Part shown: positions 1,672 to 42,956 of the stretch, one piece after another
Position numbering within the stretch: position 1 is the stretch's first letter
Layout: every line of letters begins with the position of its first letter
Assembly: GCA_905235655.1 (NCBI GenBank)
Contig: CAJOMA010000014.1
Location: 1-42,956, forward strand
Length of the DNA: 42,956 nucleotides
Direction: 5' to 3'
Source: an uncultured Oscillospiraceae bacterium
Lineage (GTDB): Bacteria > Bacillota > Clostridia > Oscillospirales > Oscillospiraceae
The notes under the pieces: generated by a model
The model's database searches: none
The model's input: only the letters and a program-made list of their open reading frames with translations
Told to the model about the DNA's origin: nothing
Translations under genes and position numbers: made by a program

Positions 1672-4059
1672 ATGAAACTGAACAGAAAATGGCTCAACGA
1701 AGAATTTGTTGACCTCTCGCATATTTCCGACAAGGAATTTGTCGATACCCTGACTGTCGCGGGTCAGAAGGTGGAGACCTACGAGCGCATGGACGCGGAG
1801 ATCTCCAACGTCGTCGTCGGCAGAGTGCTGTCCATCGTGCGCCACGAAAACTCCGACCACATGTGGGTCTGTCAGGTCGACGTCGGTAAGGACGAGCCCG
1901 TGCAGATCGTCACCGGCGCGCAGAACGTCCATGAGGGCGATCTTGTCCCCGCCGCCCTGCACAATTCCCGTCTGGTCGGCGGCGTGCATATCACCAAGGG
2001 CAAGCTGCGCGGCGTGGAATCGAACGGCATGCTCTGCTCTCTCAAGGAACTCGGTCTGACGCTCAACGACTTCCCCTATGCCATCGAGGACGGCATCTGG
2101 ATTCTGCAGGAGGACTGCAAGCCCGGCGACGATATCAACAAGATCATCGGCAACGATGACACCGTCGTGGATTTTGAGATCACGAACAACCGCCCGGACT
2201 GCTACAGCATCATCGGTCTGGCGAGAGAAGCGGCGGCAGCCTTCAATCTGCCGATGAAGCACCACGAGCCGGACGTCAAGGGCGGAGCGGAAGGCAACCT
2301 TCTTGACCTGATCGACGTCGAAGTCCCCGCGGACGATCTGTGCCGCCGCTACACGGCGCGCATGGTGCGCAACGTCAAGATCGCCCCGTCTCCCAAGTGG
2401 CTGCGCCAGCGTCTGCGCGCCAACGGCGTCCGCCCGATCAACAACATCGTCGATATCACGAACTACGTCATGCTCGAATACGGTCAGCCGATGCATGCCT
2501 TCGATTACCGCTATATCGGCTCGAAGAAAATCGTCGTGCGCAGAAGCGAGAAAGGCGAAACGCTGACCACACTGGACGGCGCGGTGCGCGCTCTTACGCC
2601 GGGCATGCTCGTCATCGCCGACGGCGAAAAGCCGATCGGTTTGGCAGGCGTGATGGGCGGCGAAAACAGCGAGATCGTCCCCGACACCGTCGACGTCGTG
2701 TTCGAATCGGCGAACTTCGACGGCACCTCCATCCGCCAGACCGCGCTTGCCCTCGGCATGCGCACGGAGTCGTCCGGCAAGTTTGAGAAGAACATCGACC
2801 CCCTGCTGACCGTTCCCGCGGTCAACCGCGCGTGCGAGCTCGTCGAGCTTTTGGGCGCGGGCGAGGTTATGGACGGCATGATCGACATCCTCAACGAGAT
2901 CCCGCAGCCGCGCGAGCTGACCTTGGAGCCGGAGCGTATCAACGCCCTGCTCGGCACGGATATTTCCGAGGCGGATATGGTCGACTACCTGCGCCGTCTG
3001 GAAATTCCTGTCGAGGGCAGAACGATCCGTGTTCCCTCGTGGCGTCCCGACCTCGTGCAGACGGCGGACATCGCCGAGGAGGTCGGCAGACTCTTCGGCT
3101 ACAATGAGATTCCCACGACCGCTTTCAAGGGCGTTGCCACCGAGGGCGGCTATACCGGCACGATGAAACAGGAAAATACCGTCGGCGCGCTCTGCCGCAG
3201 CCTCGGCTACAGCGAAATTCTGACCTATTCCTTCGTTTCTCCGTCGGTGTTCGACATGATCCGCCTTCCTGCCGACTCTCCCCTGCGCAACACGCTGAAA
3301 ATCCAGAATCCGCTCGGCGAGGACGCCTCCATCATGCGCACCGTCGCGCTGCCGTCCATGCTGGCGATCCTTTCGCGCAACAACGCCTATCACAACAGCG
3401 CGTGCAAGCTCTACGAGATGGCGAAGGTCTACCTGCCGAAGGAGGGTCAGCTTCTGCCCGACGAGCCGCGCCATCTGCTGCTCGGCACCTACGGCGAGGG
3501 CGAGGACTTCTTCCGTCTCAAGGGTGAGATCGAAGCGATCTTTCAGGGTATGAACGTCAAGGGCGCGGCATATACTGCAATCAGGGATAATCCCTCGTAT
3601 CATCCCGGACGCTGCGCACAGATCACCGTGAACGGCGTTCCGGTCGGTGTGTTCGGGCAGGTGCATCCGCTGGTTGCGAAGAACTACGACGTCAATGCGG
3701 AAATCTACGCCGCAGAGCTCGATTTTACCGCGCTGAGCGGCATGATTGCGCCCGAAGCGACGTACGTTCCCCTGCCCAAATATCCGTCTGTCAGTCGTGA
3801 TATCGCCGTCGTCGCAGACGAAAAGCTGACGGTCGCGCAGTTGGAAACCTGTATTGCAAAGGCGGGCGGCAAGCTTCTGCGCGAGGTCAAGCTCTTTGAC
3901 ATCTACCGCGGCAAGGGCATCGACGCAGGCAAGAAGAGCGTCGCCTTCAGTCTGACGCTTCGCGCGGACGACCGCACGCTGACCGACACCGACTCCGACG
4001 GCGTGATTTCCGCCGTGCTTGCCGCTCTTGAGCGCGAATACGGCGCAAAACTGCGATAA
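1672..4059 (+). CDS. pheT: Phenylalanine--tRNA ligase beta subunit
   Basis: MKLNRKWLNEEFVDLS start, tRNA-binding domain, B3/B4 and B5 domains, C-terminal anticodon-binding domain; RBS AAGGAGG; adjacent to pheS. Confidence 0.97.
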   Translation: MKLNRKWLNEEFVDLSHISDKEFVDTLTVAGQKVETYERMDAEISNVVVGRVLSIVRHENSDHMWVCQVDVGKDEPVQIVTGAQNVHEGDLVPAALHNSRLVGGVHITKGKLRGVESNGMLCSLKELGLTLNDFPYAIEDGIWILQEDCKPGDDINKIIGNDDTVVDFEITNNRPDCYSIIGLAREAAAAFNLPMKHHEPDVKGGAEGNLLDLIDVEVPADDLCRRYTARMVRNVKIAPSPKWLRQRLRANGVRPINNIVDITNYVMLEYGQPMHAFDYRYIGSKKIVVRRSEKGETLTTLDGAVRALTPGMLVIADGEKPIGLAGVMGGENSEIVPDTVDVVFESANFDGTSIRQTALALGMRTESSGKFEKNIDPLLTVPAVNRACELVELLGAGEVMDGMIDILNEIPQPRELTLEPERINALLGTDISEADMVDYLRRLEIPVEGRTIRVPSWRPDLVQTADIAEEVGRLFGYNEIPTTAFKGVATEGGYTGTMKQENTVGALCRSLGYSEILTYSFVSPSVFDMIRLPADSPLRNTLKIQNPLGEDASIMRTVALPSMLAILSRNNAYHNSACKLYEMAKVYLPKEGQLLPDEPRHLLLGTYGEGEDFFRLKGEIEAIFQGMNVKGAAYTAIRDNPSYHPGRCAQITVNGVPVGVFGQVHPLVAKNYDVNAEIYAAELDFTALSGMIAPEATYVPLPKYPSVSRDIAVVADEKLTVAQLETCIAKAGGKLLREVKLFDIYRGKGIDAGKKSVAFSLTLRADDRTLTDTDSDGVISAVLAALEREYGAKLR

Positions 4060-4441: not shown

Positions 4442-4507
4442 CCGTTTCATTCTCCCAACATCCTGTTCCCCTGCGCCGGACCGACGGTAACGAATTTGAG
4501 ATTTTGG

Positions 4508-20572: not shown

Positions 20573-20584
20573 AGTGTAATTGAA

Positions 20585-20700
20585 GATTGATAGCTGTAAC
20601 GAAGTGCTGCGCGCACGGGCTGACACTATCACTCAGGGGTTACTTGAGTGGAGATGCGGAAGGGTTCCGTGTCCCCATTTTTTGTTTCTGCGGATTATTA
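20585..20700 (+). promoter_or_regulatory. Candidate structured 5' leader / attenuator of ssnA
   Basis: Hairpins GTGC-tgcgc-GCAC (20604-20616), CACTCA-ggggttact-TGAGTG (20630-20650), CGGAA-ggg-TTCCG (20657-20669); loop GGGG complementary to CCCC (20673-20676) just before ATTTTTTG. Confidence 0.45.
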
Positions 20701-30802: not shown

Positions 30803-31825
30803 AAACCGTGATATTCCCGGCGGACGATCCGCTGACGCCGAAGAAAGCCGCCGCCATCATTCGCAGCGGCGGTCTCGTCGCCATCCCGACGGAAACAGTC
30901 TACGGACTGGGCGCGAACGCGATGGACGAAGCGGCGGTCGCGAAGATTTTCGAAGCGAAAGGTCGTCCGCAGGACAACCCCTTGATTATTCATATCGCCT
31001 GCGCTGCGGAACTGGAGCGTTACTGCCATGATATTCCGGACAGCGCGTATCTGCTTGCGGAGCGCTTCTGGCCGGGACCTCTGACGATGGTGCTTCCCGT
31101 CAACGACCGCATTCCCAGGCGCACCACAGCCGGGCTCGATACCGTCGCCGTTCGCTGTCCGAAGACCGCGGTCACCCGCGCGCTGATCGCGGAGGCGGGC
31201 GTTCCGATCGCAGCGCCGTCGGCGAATCTTTCCGGAAAGCCCTCCACCACGACAGCGGCGCACGTCCTGCACGACTACGGAACAGACGGCAGGATCGACG
31301 CGATCATCAACGGCGGCGCGTGCGAGGTCGGCGTGGAATCCACGATCGTCGATCTGACCGGCGCGCGGACGACGGTATCGTTTGCAATCTGTTCCAGCAC
31401 GGCTTTGTCGCTCTCCAAATCACCCAAAAGCGCCCGCAGCTCTTCCGGCGTCCGATACCGTCGTCCGCGCGCCGGGCATGAAGTATAAGCACTACGCTCC
31501 GAACGCGGAGGTCTATATCGTTACCGGCTCGAGCGAGGCGGCTGCCGCCTACGTGCGCAAACGCTTCTCAGACGGCGACGCCGTGCTCTGCTTTGAAGAG
31601 GAACTGCCGCTGTTTGACGGCTGCAATCCCACCGCCTACGGACGGATCGCGGATGTAAAAACGCTTTCTGCAGGTCTGTTTGCGGCATTACGGGATTTGG
31701 ACCGTCCGGAGATCAAAACGATATACGCACGCTGTCCGGAGGGCGGCGGCGTTGCCTACGCGGTCGGCAATCGTCTGAAAAAGGCTGCCGCGTTCCGCTG
31801 CGTCGATGCGGAGGCGGAGCCATGA
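30799..31825 (+). pseudogene. tsaC: L-threonylcarbamoyladenylate synthase (Sua5/YrdC), reading frame interrupted by an internal inverted segment
   Basis: N-part to 31380 is canonical (IPTETVYGLGANA, KGRPQDNPLIIHI, WPGPLTMVL, PIAAPSANLSGKPSTTTAAHV, VESTIVDLTGAR); C-part from 31453 reads DTVVRAPGMKYKHYAPNAEVYIV... in another frame; coupled by ATGA overlaps to prfA and coaE. Confidence 0.88.
31358..31475. repeat. Perfect 23-bp inverted repeats (31358-31380 / 31453-31475) flanking a reverse-complemented 72-bp segment in tsaC
   Basis: CCGGCGCGCGGACGACGGTATCG ... CGATACCGTCGTCCGCGCGCCGG; reverse complement of the intervening DNA encodes the missing RTPEELRALLGDLESDKAVLEQIAN. Confidence 0.93.
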
Positions 31826-33798
31826 CGGTAATCGGAATCACCGGCGGCACGGGAAGCGGCAAAACGACCCTCCTTCGCGCAGTTGCGGCGCGCGGCGGTC
31901 TTTGCATTGACTGTGATCGGCTGTATCACCGGCTCTTGGAGCGGGACGAAGCGCTCTTATCTGCTCTGGCAGCGCGCTTCCCTGCCGCGTTTGACAGCGG
32001 TGTATTAAACCGCAAAGTGTTGGGAAATCTTGTATTTGCCGACCCCGACGAGCTTGCCGCGCTCAACGGGATCACGCACAAGGTCGTCTGCCGCGAAGTA
32101 CGGAACATTCTTTGCAAGACGGACAATCCCCTTGTCGCGATTGACGCGATCGCGCTGTTTGAAAGCAGTCTGAACGAGCTGTGCGACGTGACTGTGGCAG
32201 TGACCGCGCCGGAGGAGCTTCGGGTCGAACGCCTTCTGCGGCGCGACGGCATACCCCGCGAGGACGCGATCAAGCGTATCCGCGCGCAGAAATCGGACGC
32301 CGCGTTTTCCGCTATGGCGCAGTATACCCTGAAAAACGACGCTTCCGAGGAAGCGTTCGTCAAACAATGTGAACAGTTTCTGAAAGGAGTTTTATCACCC
32401 ATGGAAGAAAAGAAATATGAATCGCTGCGCAAAGAGCTGCTCTTTGCCCCAAAGAACGGCTATGATCGCATCTCCGACGAGGATCTCGCCGCCATGCAGG
32501 ATTACTGCAAAGAGTACGCCGACTTCATCAGCGCCTGCAAGATCGAGCGCGAAGCGGTAGACTGGACGATCGCCGAGGCGGAAAAGCACGGCTTCAAGCC
32601 GCTCGTTCCCGGCATGAAGCTGCAGCCCGGCGACAAGGTCTACGGCAACGACCACGGCAAGAGCGTGATCTTCGCCGTCGTCGGCACGGAGCCGCTGGAC
32701 AAGGGCACGCACATCTGCGCCGCGCACATCGACTCCCCGCGCCTCGACCTCAAGCCCAATCCTCTGTATGAGGACAGCGAGCTTGCGTACTTCAAGACGC
32801 ATTACTACGGCGGCATTAAAAAATACCAGTGGACGACGACCCCGCTCGCCCTGCACGGCGTGATCGCAAAAAAGGACGGCAGCGTGATCAAGGTCACCGT
32901 TGGCGAAGACCCCGGCGACCCGATCTTCTGCGTGACCGATCTTCTGATCCACCTCTCCGCAGATCAGATGAAGAAGACGATGGCGGAGGGCGTGACCGGC
33001 GAAAACCTGCGCGTTCTGCTCGGCAGCAGACCCCTGAAGGACGACGAGGGCAGCGACCGGATCAAGTTTGCCGTCCTGTGCCTGCTCAACGAAAAGTACG
33101 GCGTCACGGAGGACGATTTCCTCTCCGCCGAGCTGACGATGGTGCCGGCTGGACCGGCAAGAGACGTCGGCTTTGACCGCAGCATGATCGCAGCTTACGG
33201 TCACGACGACCGCGTCTGCGCCTTTGCCGCGTTCAAACCGCTGCTGGAAATCGGCACGCCGAAGAAAACCGCCGTCTGCGTGCTCGCGGACAAGGAAGAA
33301 ATCGGCTCGGTCGGTATCAGCGGCATGCAGAGCCAGTATTTTGAGACCTTCATGCACGATCTGTGCACGGCGGCGAACGCTTGCGTGCACCGCTGCTTTG
33401 AACAATCCTTCTGCCTCAGCGCGGATGTCAGCAACGCCTTCGACCCCCTCTACGCAGAGACCTGCGACAAGAGCAACAACACGAAGATCAACTATGGCAC
33501 CGGTATCTTTAAGTACACCGGAGCACGCGGCAAGAGCGGCTCATCCGACGCGGCGGCGGAGGTCATGGCGTATGTGCGCAAGCTGTTTTCCGACAACGAC
33601 GTGATCTGGCAGACCGGCGAGCTCGGCAAGGTCGATCAGGGGGGCGGCGGCACCGTCGCCTGCTACATGGCAAACCGCAACATTGAGACGGTCGACGCAG
33701 GCGTTCCAGTTCTGTCCATGCATGCACCGATGGAGCTGGTTTCCAAGCTGGACACCTACATGACCTACAAGGGAATGAAGGTATTCTATCAGGATTAA
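31822..33798 (+). CDS. Dephospho-CoA kinase (N-terminal) fused in frame to M18 family zinc aminopeptidase (C-terminal)
   Basis: CoaE: VIGITGGTGSGKTTLLRAVA, VLNRKVLGNLVFADPDELAALNGITH; M18: HICAAHIDSPRLDLKPNPLYE, ADKEEIGSVGISGMQS, LSADVSNAFDPLY, VLSMHAPMELVSKLDTYM. No stop between domains; internal AAAGGAG + ATG at 32401. Confidence 0.88.
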   Translation: MTVIGITGGTGSGKTTLLRAVAARGGLCIDCDRLYHRLLERDEALLSALAARFPAAFDSGVLNRKVLGNLVFADPDELAALNGITHKVVCREVRNILCKTDNPLVAIDAIALFESSLNELCDVTVAVTAPEELRVERLLRRDGIPREDAIKRIRAQKSDAAFSAMAQYTLKNDASEEAFVKQCEQFLKGVLSPMEEKKYESLRKELLFAPKNGYDRISDEDLAAMQDYCKEYADFISACKIEREAVDWTIAEAEKHGFKPLVPGMKLQPGDKVYGNDHGKSVIFAVVGTEPLDKGTHICAAHIDSPRLDLKPNPLYEDSELAYFKTHYYGGIKKYQWTTTPLALHGVIAKKDGSVIKVTVGEDPGDPIFCVTDLLIHLSADQMKKTMAEGVTGENLRVLLGSRPLKDDEGSDRIKFAVLCLLNEKYGVTEDDFLSAELTMVPAGPARDVGFDRSMIAAYGHDDRVCAFAAFKPLLEIGTPKKTAVCVLADKEEIGSVGISGMQSQYFETFMHDLCTAANACVHRCFEQSFCLSADVSNAFDPLYAETCDKSNNTKINYGTGIFKYTGARGKSGSSDAAAEVMAYVRKLFSDNDVIWQTGELGKVDQGGGGTVACYMANRNIETVDAGVPVLSMHAPMELVSKLDTYMTYKGMKVFYQD

Positions 33799-39373: not shown

Positions 39374-40390
39374 TTACATTTTTTCGCCTTCCATCGACTT
39401 TGTGGCGAAGGCGTTGAGCGACTGATCCGCGGTATTTCCGGCAAGAAACTCGTAATAGCCCTGCGCGCCGATCATCGCCGCGTTGTCGCCGCAGAGAGAC
39501 AGCGGCGGCATGCAGAGCCGCACGTTCTTTTTCTCGCACAGCTTCGTCAGGTCGGTGCGGATCCGGCTGTTCGCCGCCACGCCGCCGGCGACCGCGAGGG
39601 TCGATCTGCCGGTCAGATCAAGCGCGGCTTCGGCGCGCGGGATCAGCATCTCGCTGACCGCAGCGGAAAAGCTCGCGCACAGGTCGGGAATGTCGACTTC
39701 TTCCCCTTTTTGCCGGGAATTATGGATCAGATTGACCGCCGCAGTCTTGAGCCCAGAGAAGGACAGATCGAGCGGATTGCCGGACAGCTTTGGATGCGGC
39801 ATCGGATAGCGCGAATCATCGCCGCCCTGTGCCGCTTTGTCCAGCGCAGCCCCGCCGGGATAAGGCATTGCAAGCATTCGCGCCACTTTATCAAAGCATT
39901 CGCCCGCCGCGTCGTCGCGCGTTCCGCCGAGGTTTTCCATGACCGTATAGTCCTTCACGTCCACGAGCATCGTATGTCCGCCGGACACGACGAGGCACAG
40001 AAACGGCGGCTTCAGATCGGGATAGGCGATGTAGTTCGCTGCGATGTGCCCGCGGATGTGATGCACGGGGATCAGCGGCACGCCGAGCGCAAGCGCAGCT
40101 GCCTTGGCGAAGTTCACGCCGACCAGCAGCGCGCCGATCAGACCGGGCGCGTAGGTCACGGCGACGGCGTCGATCTCCGATCGCGAGACGCCCGCTTTTT
40201 TGAGTGCTTCGTCCGCCAGCGCATAGATCGCTTCAATGTGCTTCCGCGATGCGATCTCCGGCACCACGCCGCCATAAATGCGGTGCAGCGGCACCTGCGA
40301 GGCGATACAGTCCGTCAGGACTTCCCTGCCGTCTCGCACCAGCGCGACCGCGGTCTCGTCGCAGGAGGATTCTACCGAAAGTATCAGCAT
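39374..40390 (-). CDS. tsaD: tRNA N6-adenosine threonylcarbamoyltransferase
   Basis: MLILSVESSCDETAVALVRDG, GGVVPEIASRKHIEAI, PLIPVHHIRGHIAANYI, VVSGGHTMLV, GGVAANSRIR, MPPLSLCGDNAAMIG. Confidence 0.96.
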   Translation of the reverse strand: MLILSVESSCDETAVALVRDGREVLTDCIASQVPLHRIYGGVVPEIASRKHIEAIYALADEALKKAGVSRSEIDAVAVTYAPGLIGALLVGVNFAKAAALALGVPLIPVHHIRGHIAANYIAYPDLKPPFLCLVVSGGHTMLVDVKDYTVMENLGGTRDDAAGECFDKVARMLAMPYPGGAALDKAAQGGDDSRYPMPHPKLSGNPLDLSFSGLKTAAVNLIHNSRQKGEEVDIPDLCASFSAAVSEMLIPRAEAALDLTGRSTLAVAGGVAANSRIRTDLTKLCEKKNVRLCMPPLSLCGDNAAMIGAQGYYEFLAGNTADQSLNAFATKSMEGEKM

Positions 40391-40391
40391 T

Positions 40392-40823
40392 TTACAGCTC
40401 CTTTCGGAGGATCAAAGCGTCCTCCGTTGGGTTTACATAATATTTTTGTCGTCTGCCGGCCTGCACGAAGCCGTGCGCCTCATACAGAGCGATCGCGGCG
40501 CTGTTGGATGGTCTGACCTCCAGAAACAGGGTTTCGATCCCCTGCCCGTGCAGAAGCTCAAACATAGCGCAAAGCAGTTTTGCACCGATCCCCTGTCTGC
40601 GGCAGTCGGGCGATACCGCCAGATTCATCACGTCCGCTTCCGGAGGGACGGACTGCGCGCCAATATAGCCGGTCACAACGCCGTCTGTCTCCGCCACAAG
40701 CCATGCGCTGAGCGGATTGTATAGCTCGAACTCGATTGATTTTTCGCTCCACGGATCGGAGAAGCAGCGCTTTTCCAGCGCGGCGACCTGCGCGACGTGG
40801 TCTTCTCTCATCGGAACGATCAT
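40392..40823 (-). CDS. rimI: Ribosomal-protein-alanine N-acetyltransferase-like GNAT
   Basis: VAALEKRCFSDPWSEKSIEFEL...VSPDCRRQGIGAKLLCAMFELLHGQGIETLFLEVRPSNSAAIALYEAHGF. Confidence 0.92.
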   Translation of the reverse strand: MIVPMREDHVAQVAALEKRCFSDPWSEKSIEFELYNPLSAWLVAETDGVVTGYIGAQSVPPEADVMNLAVSPDCRRQGIGAKLLCAMFELLHGQGIETLFLEVRPSNSAAIALYEAHGFVQAGRRQKYYVNPTEDALILRKEL

Positions 40824-42956
40824 TTCGCGTCGTACCAGCTTTCTCCCATTTTCGCCTCCGCGATCAGCGGCACGGAGAGCTTCACCGCCTGTTCCATCGC
40901 CTCGGTGACGATGTCCATGACGCGCTGCGCCTCAAAGGCGGGGCACTCCACAATCAGCTCGTCATGCACCTGCAGGATCAGTCTCGCCTGCAGCGCCTCC
41001 TGCTCCAAAGCGTCGAAAACCCGCACCATGGCGAGCTTGATGATATCCGCCGCTGTTCCCTGCACCGGGGTGTTGAGCGCGATGCGCTCCGCGCCGCTGC
41101 GAATATTGAAATTGCTGTTTTTGATCTCCGGAATCAGCCTGCGGCGGTGGAACAGCGTCTCCACATAACCTTGCGCACGGGCGGTTTCCACGATGTTTTT
41201 CATATAGGCGCGGACGCCCGCGTATTTTGTCAGATAGTTGTCGATATACTGCTTCGCTTCGGAGCGGCTTACGCCGATGTCCTGTGCGAGCGAGAACTCC
41301 GAAATGCCGTAGACAATGCCGAAATTGACCGCCTTTGCGTGGCGGCGCATGAGCGGCGTGACCTCGGATAACGGCACGTTAAAGACCTGTGAGGCGGTGA
41401 CGCTGTGGAAGTCCTCGCCGCTGCGGAAAGCCGCCTGCATCTGCTTATCGTCCGCGATATGCGCCAGCACGCGCAGCTCGATCTGCGAATAGTCCGCGTC
41501 GACAAAGACCCAGCCCTTGCGCGGCACGAACATCTTCCGTATCTCGCTGCCCAACTCCGTGCGCACCGGGATATTCTGCAGGTTCGGCTCGGTCGAGGAC
41601 AGTCTGCCCGTCGCCGTCACGGTATTCTGGAACGTCGTGTGGATTCTGCCGTCGTCAGCGATCTCCTTCTGCAGTCCGTCGGCATAGGTCGACTTCAGCT
41701 TCGTCAGCATGCGGTAATCCATGACCGCCCGCACGACCGGATGCTTGTCCTTCAATTCTTCCAGCACGTCCGCGTTGGTCGAATAGCCGCTCTTGGTTTT
41801 TTTGACGACCGGAAGCTGCAGCTTGTCAAACAGCAGCTCTCCGAGCTGGCGGGTGGAATTGATATTGAATTCGCCATCCGCATAGCCGTAAATCAGCGTT
41901 TCGCAGGCGCCGATCCGCTCGGCAAGCATCGCGCCGAAGGAAGAAAGCGCCTCCCTGTCGACCAGAACGCCGTCGTGCTCCATATTTGCAAGCGCTCTGC
42001 ACAGCGGCAGCTCTACATCATGATAGAGTGTTTCGCAGTCGTGAGCGCGCAGCTCATCCAAGAGGATCGGATAGAGCGCGGCGATTGCAGACGCTTCGCT
42101 CAGTAAGGCGGCATTCGCCTCCTCCGTAGCGGAGAGCATGGCGTGGGTATACTGCGCGAAAACGCCCCGTAAATCGTAGCTTCCGCGCGTCGCGTCGAGC
42201 AGATACGCGGCGACCTCGGTATCGAAAACGATCCCCTCTGCGTTGATCCCATGCTCCAGCAGGCTGCGAAGCAGCTTTTTTGCGCCGTGAACGGCCAAAC
42301 GCAGTTTTCCCGAGAAGATACGCTCCAATACCGTTTGAAACGTCTCGCCGAGGATATTGCGGTCAAACAGCGCGGCGGTATCGCCGCCGTCCGCCGCGAT
42401 AAGTGAAAAATCATCGTTGACAGCAAGCGCGACGACCTCGCATTTTTCAAGCGGGGCAAGGCAGCCCTCCGCCTTCTCCCGTGTATCCGGCGTTTCCGCC
42501 GTGACCTCACTGACGAACTCCTCTTTTTCTTCCTCCGGCTGTTCAAACGCCGCGCTGCGCAGCCCAAAGCGGTCGATCAGCTTCTGGAATTCCAAACGGA
42601 GGAACAGGTCGTAGAGCTCCCTGCGCTTCGGTTCGCGCACGGGATTGTTCTCCGGCGCAAAGTCGATCGGCGCGTTTTTGCGGATCGTCGCAAGGTCATA
42701 GGAGAGATACGCCGATTCTTTTCCGTTCAGCAGTTTTTCGAACAGCTTGCCCTTCATGTTTTCGGGCGTCAAGTTCTCATACACGCCGTCCAGCGTGCCG
42801 TGGACTTCCTTGATGGTGTACTCGTAGGTGCCGGCCTTCACGTAGGTCATCAGGCCGAAGGTCTCCGTGAAATCAGGAGTCTCGCTGGTGATCCGTACCG
42901 TCTTGCTGCCGTCCTCTGCGTCCTCCGGCATCGGCTGTGCTTCGAGATCCGCCGCA
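40820..42956 (-). CDS. polA: DNA polymerase I (3' part), joined N-terminally to a pilin/isopeptide-like surface domain; incomplete at window edge
   Basis: Pol A: GRLSSTEPNLQNIPVRTELG, VDADYSQIELRVLAHIADD, RRHAKAVNFGIVYGIS, LQVHDELIVE; end of 5'-3' exo domain GTLDGVYENLTPENMKGKLFEKLLNGKESAYLS. Upstream of ~42806: TVRITSETPDFTETFGLMTYVKAGTYEYTIKEV, not PolA-like. Confidence 0.88.
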   Translation of the reverse strand, partial: AADLEAQPMPEDAEDGSKTVRITSETPDFTETFGLMTYVKAGTYEYTIKEVHGTLDGVYENLTPENMKGKLFEKLLNGKESAYLSYDLATIRKNAPIDFAPENNPVREPKRRELYDLFLRLEFQKLIDRFGLRSAAFEQPEEEKEEFVSEVTAETPDTREKAEGCLAPLEKCEVVALAVNDDFSLIAADGGDTAALFDRNILGETFQTVLERIFSGKLRLAVHGAKKLLRSLLEHGINAEGIVFDTEVAAYLLDATRGSYDLRGVFAQYTHAMLSATEEANAALLSEASAIAALYPILLDELRAHDCETLYHDVELPLCRALANMEHDGVLVDREALSSFGAMLAERIGACETLIYGYADGEFNINSTRQLGELLFDKLQLPVVKKTKSGYSTNADVLEELKDKHPVVRAVMDYRMLTKLKSTYADGLQKEIADDGRIHTTFQNTVTATGRLSSTEPNLQNIPVRTELGSEIRKMFVPRKGWVFVDADYSQIELRVLAHIADDKQMQAAFRSGEDFHSVTASQVFNVPLSEVTPLMRRHAKAVNFGIVYGISEFSLAQDIGVSRSEAKQYIDNYLTKYAGVRAYMKNIVETARAQGYVETLFHRRRLIPEIKNSNFNIRSGAERIALNTPVQGTAADIIKLAMVRVFDALEQEALQARLILQVHDELIVECPAFEAQRVMDIVTEAMEQAVKLSVPLIAEAKMGESWYDAK

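Follow-up and report, generated by a model that had tools for sequence, protein, structure and literature searches.

Contig C14 and the open frame across the join

The assembly consists of 144 contigs, and the window, by which we mean the whole 42,956-nucleotide stretch analyzed, spans one of them, C14, from end to end. Near its last base, pilin-type sequence precedes the larger part of polA, which is followed by two further genes on the same strand:

39374 to 40390, minus strand: tsaD-like gene, downstream of rimI (open reading frame, assigned by its sequence; order conserved in G001, the closest relative)
40392 to 40823, minus strand: rimI-like acetyltransferase gene, downstream of polA (open reading frame, assigned by its sequence; order conserved in G001)
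40820 to 42801, minus strand: 3′ part of polA, starting near codon 208 and running to the stop, with the end of the 5′-3′ exonuclease domain, the 3′-5′ exonuclease-like domain and the polymerase domain (PF00476; identity to congeners)
42784 to 42801, minus strand: seam GGCACGCTGGACGGCGTG, encoding GTLDGV, a polA motif that pilin repeats resemble (identical in G001)
42802 to 42956, minus strand: foreign 155-base tail, encoding a partial pilin isopeptide domain of Spy0128/FctA type (PF12892 above cut-off; not alignable to relatives)

A single open frame of 711 codons (42955-40820, minus strand) runs through the join, where it reads AADLEAQPMPEDAEDGSKTVRITSETPDFTETFGLMTYVKAGTYEYTIKEV followed directly by HGTLDGVYENLTPENMKGKLFEKL... 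The sequence-only reading had described pilin-like letters running in frame into PolA, and they are present as described, with 42802-42956 joined to polA at about 42784-42801. The family A polymerase domain is complete (DNA_pol_A, PF00476, profile positions 2-381 of 381, 544.7 bits). By contrast, the 5′-3′ exonuclease domain (5_3_exonuc) is represented on C14 by its C-terminal part only, a truncated match whose 33.9 bits fall under the cut-off of 40, which agrees with the earlier remark that most of the 5′ nuclease domain is missing from this frame. C14 lacks the full N-terminal 5′-3′ exonuclease domain, which begins on another contig, at the end of C16.

When the 51 amino acids of the tail were scanned alone, they matched the Pfam family FctA (PF12892) with an E value of 1.1e-5 and 26.6 bits. 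Given that the curated cut-off of this family is 22.1 bits, the resemblance to pilins exceeds chance, and the pilin-like character first read from the letters is borne out. The match covers only positions 30-72 of the 120 in the profile; C14 ends inside the domain, and the fragment carries neither a signal nor a sorting motif. Pilin-type repeats with a PMP...FG..TY.KAGTYEYTIKEV core were found in 18 loci, mostly from Lachnospiraceae, Atopobiaceae and other Gram-positive bacteria, and the best pilin homologue of the tail shares 58% identity with it. While the tail thus has the same core as the Spy0128/FctA-like repeats of Gram-positive surface proteins (PF12892), those homologues have frames of up to about 4000 amino acids, whereas C14 holds a fragment only, the rest of the gene being absent from the assembly. 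The edge of the window at which the sequence-only reading placed the fusion is the end of C14, so that no sequence lies further upstream within this contig into which a surface protein could continue past 42956. The orphan pilin 3′ end that had been suggested was not found either: the FctA search returned only the C14 fragment in the assembly.

A family search detected no second FctA match in this genome or in 16 congeners. None of 59 related genomes encodes a fragment similar to the tail; the pilin-polA join was therefore seen in no more than one genome, and the relatives, in which the same fusion had been proposed as evidence of a true one, do not have it. No pilin donor was recovered from the plasmid collection, by DNA or by protein, or from viral contigs. 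We rejected the idea that the tail is a fragment of the organism's own pilin, since genome and genus are without another FctA match. A lone FctA fragment in the assembly fits a donor that is another organism.

The 5′ part of polA and the locus in relatives

A profile search of the whole genome placed the PolA N-terminal nuclease domain at a single site, C16 31468-31866; the contig is 31868 bases long, and the match is cut short by its end, after profile position 133 of 164. A gene named cysS from its sequence lies immediately upstream of this polA start. An orphan polA 5′ end, which the sequence-only reading had proposed to look for, is thus in the assembly, at the end of C16 after cysS, and it supports the mis-join that this reading had offered as an alternative to recombination.

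The end of C16 shows a switch of its own. Its polA agrees fully with that of G001 over residues 1-65 (100% identity), whereas residues 66-135 have 44% identity to G001 versus 69% to Parabacteroides distasonis, and third-position GC drops from 0.785 to 0.464 at the switch. C16 can be aligned with the nearest relatives only up to 209-210 bases from its end (position 1691-1692 of 1901 in locus L002), and the last 209 bp (31660-31868; 1693-1901 in the locus) are polA sequence of Bacteroidales type. To judge from these features, the partner contig C16 is chimeric at its end as well. A simple overlap of the C14 and C16 ends was rejected, as the two have no word of more than 12 bases in common.

Among 36 relatives, the four nearest congeners have polA proteins with 88-96% identity to that of the window. 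The flanks that end C16 and C14 adjoin on one contig in G001, G010, G012 and G003, with 427 bp of polA and no pilin sequence between them. The gene order in G001 is cysS-polA-rimI-tsaD, which is the order expected from C16 plus C14. The polA frame of G010, G012 and G003 is intact over the seam position, reading ...VGPKTASELLQK-YGTLDGVYENLTPEN... or nearly so, and further congeners that cover the region have polA sequence there too. On C14, similarity to the nearest relatives starts abruptly 156-158 bases from the contig end, and when the tail is set against G001 in register, 43 of 155 positions are identical. Compared with polA of the same genus, the gene codes for the same protein from about codon 208 onward and has the same neighbors, rimI-tsaD downstream and, on C16, cysS upstream; it differs in that C14 carries the tail instead of the codons before about 208. 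The opposite (start) end of C14 aligns with G001, G010 and G012 from base 1, so only its polA end is chimeric. General corruption of the contig was rejected, given this clean other end.

Two irregularities were seen in polA of the relatives themselves. In G001, the gene is frameshifted near SYDLATIRKN, just downstream of the seam position (locus L007, contig C43 of G001, near 4465-4477), possibly through another assembly error in the same gene. In G004, polA is in two pieces (C186 and C287) that overlap over query residues 360-380 and differ markedly in identity to the window (93% versus 75%), a sign that the bin may be mixed.

Seams, rival explanations and the proposed mis-assembly

The seam on C16 is an exact 18-base word, GGACCGACCTTCCGCCAT, common to the polA genes of G001 and Parabacteroides. 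On C14, some pilin homologues encode GSLDGVTYD or GSVDGVTYD at the corresponding place, that is G(S/T)xDGV, and the FctA profile match extends to protein residue 58, beyond the apparent seam. The sequence-only reading had put the microhomology in ATCAAGGA, but this is absent from polA of the relatives, which read CTGCAGAAATACGG or CTCAAAAAATACGG there; from the sequences compared, the GTLDGV-coding segment is the likely shared stretch. Because the actual donor was not found, we infer, rather than observe, an exact word shared between it and polA at this seam. By itself, a join would fall in frame with a chance of one in three. If the seam is a coding word shared in the same frame, an in-frame join is to be expected.

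The claim that polA is fused to a pilin or surface domain does not find support in these data. The junction lies at a contig end, an orphan 5′ end of polA is on C16, the locus is contiguous in relatives, both tails are foreign, and the C16 seam is an 18-base word found in both genes compared there; on these grounds, which are comparative and agree throughout, the apparent polA-pilin fusion is almost certainly an assembly artefact, a chimeric contig end over an ordinary polA. A recombination in the strain that inserted a pilin fragment into polA, split the gene and left a pilin-Klenow fusion would account for a frame that stays open for 711 codons over the join and has an ATG at 42931. Such an insertion should, however, leave pilin on both sides, whereas C16 ends in polA of a different organism; congeneric relatives carry an ordinary polA at the site, pilin of this type was not found in the genus, and the join is only 155 bases from the contig end, not within C14 with longer sequence on both sides. 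We consider this explanation very improbable, and the relatives' polA and the C16 partner end led us to reject a true fusion. A real, strain-specific rearrangement, with the 5′ nuclease portion of polA displaced by a pilin fragment gained through horizontal transfer, is in our estimate extremely unlikely.

The join might also have been made before sequencing, in a chimeric read or library molecule formed by ligation or PCR template switch, into which the assembler merely extended. The position of the tail at the contig end and its size of 155 bp, about one short-read length, agree with this, but random ligation would explain less well than graph or overlap errors why both seams fall on coding words that are conserved or shared. 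Template switching at microhomology may still have played a part. We regard a chimeric molecule as highly unlikely; it would be an artefact too and would leave the verdict the same.

The assembly is probably a metagenome bin, as its fragmentation, its estimated contamination of 4.45% and the mixed tails indicate. Under the mis-assembly that we favor, polA of the organism would be ordinary, with the gene order cysS-polA-rimI-tsaD. The assembler would have failed to resolve it in the stretch from about codon 65 to about codon 208, so that its halves ended up on C16 and C14, and a short word in common with polA may then have led from each loose end into the sequence of a different organism. On C14 this would have added 155 bp of an isopeptide repeat of pilin type, with the GTLDGV-coding word as the most likely shared stretch, and on C16 it would have added 209 bp of Bacteroidales-type polA, by way of GGACCGACCTTCCGCCAT. 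Both the graph-level mechanism and the metagenome source are presumed. Chimeric contigs have been documented in metagenome assembly for species of low to intermediate coverage (PMC7881036). Those from short-read assembly likewise switch abruptly to the sequence of another organism (PMC7881036); on C14, which belongs to a fragmented assembly, the switch is at the contig end and coincides with a short word that is conserved or shared. We see no substantive difference between the two, the join being in frame as the shared word would code in both genes.

Our findings matter as a caution alone: in a metagenome bin, a fusion that keeps the frame but lies no more than about one read length from a contig end can result from faulty assembly, and such joins can look seamless owing to short conserved coding words. 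Annotated automatically, this assembly would yield a spurious "FctA-PolA" protein along with two polA genes, each truncated.

Elsewhere in the window, a T-box leader (RF00230, 352-569, plus strand, 98.9 bits) precedes a pheS-like gene (616-1659) and, after it, a pheT-like gene (1672-4059), an ordinary arrangement. An ssnA RNA motif (RF03031) was also detected at 20584-20631 on the plus strand, with 69.6 bits against a gathering score of 37.3.
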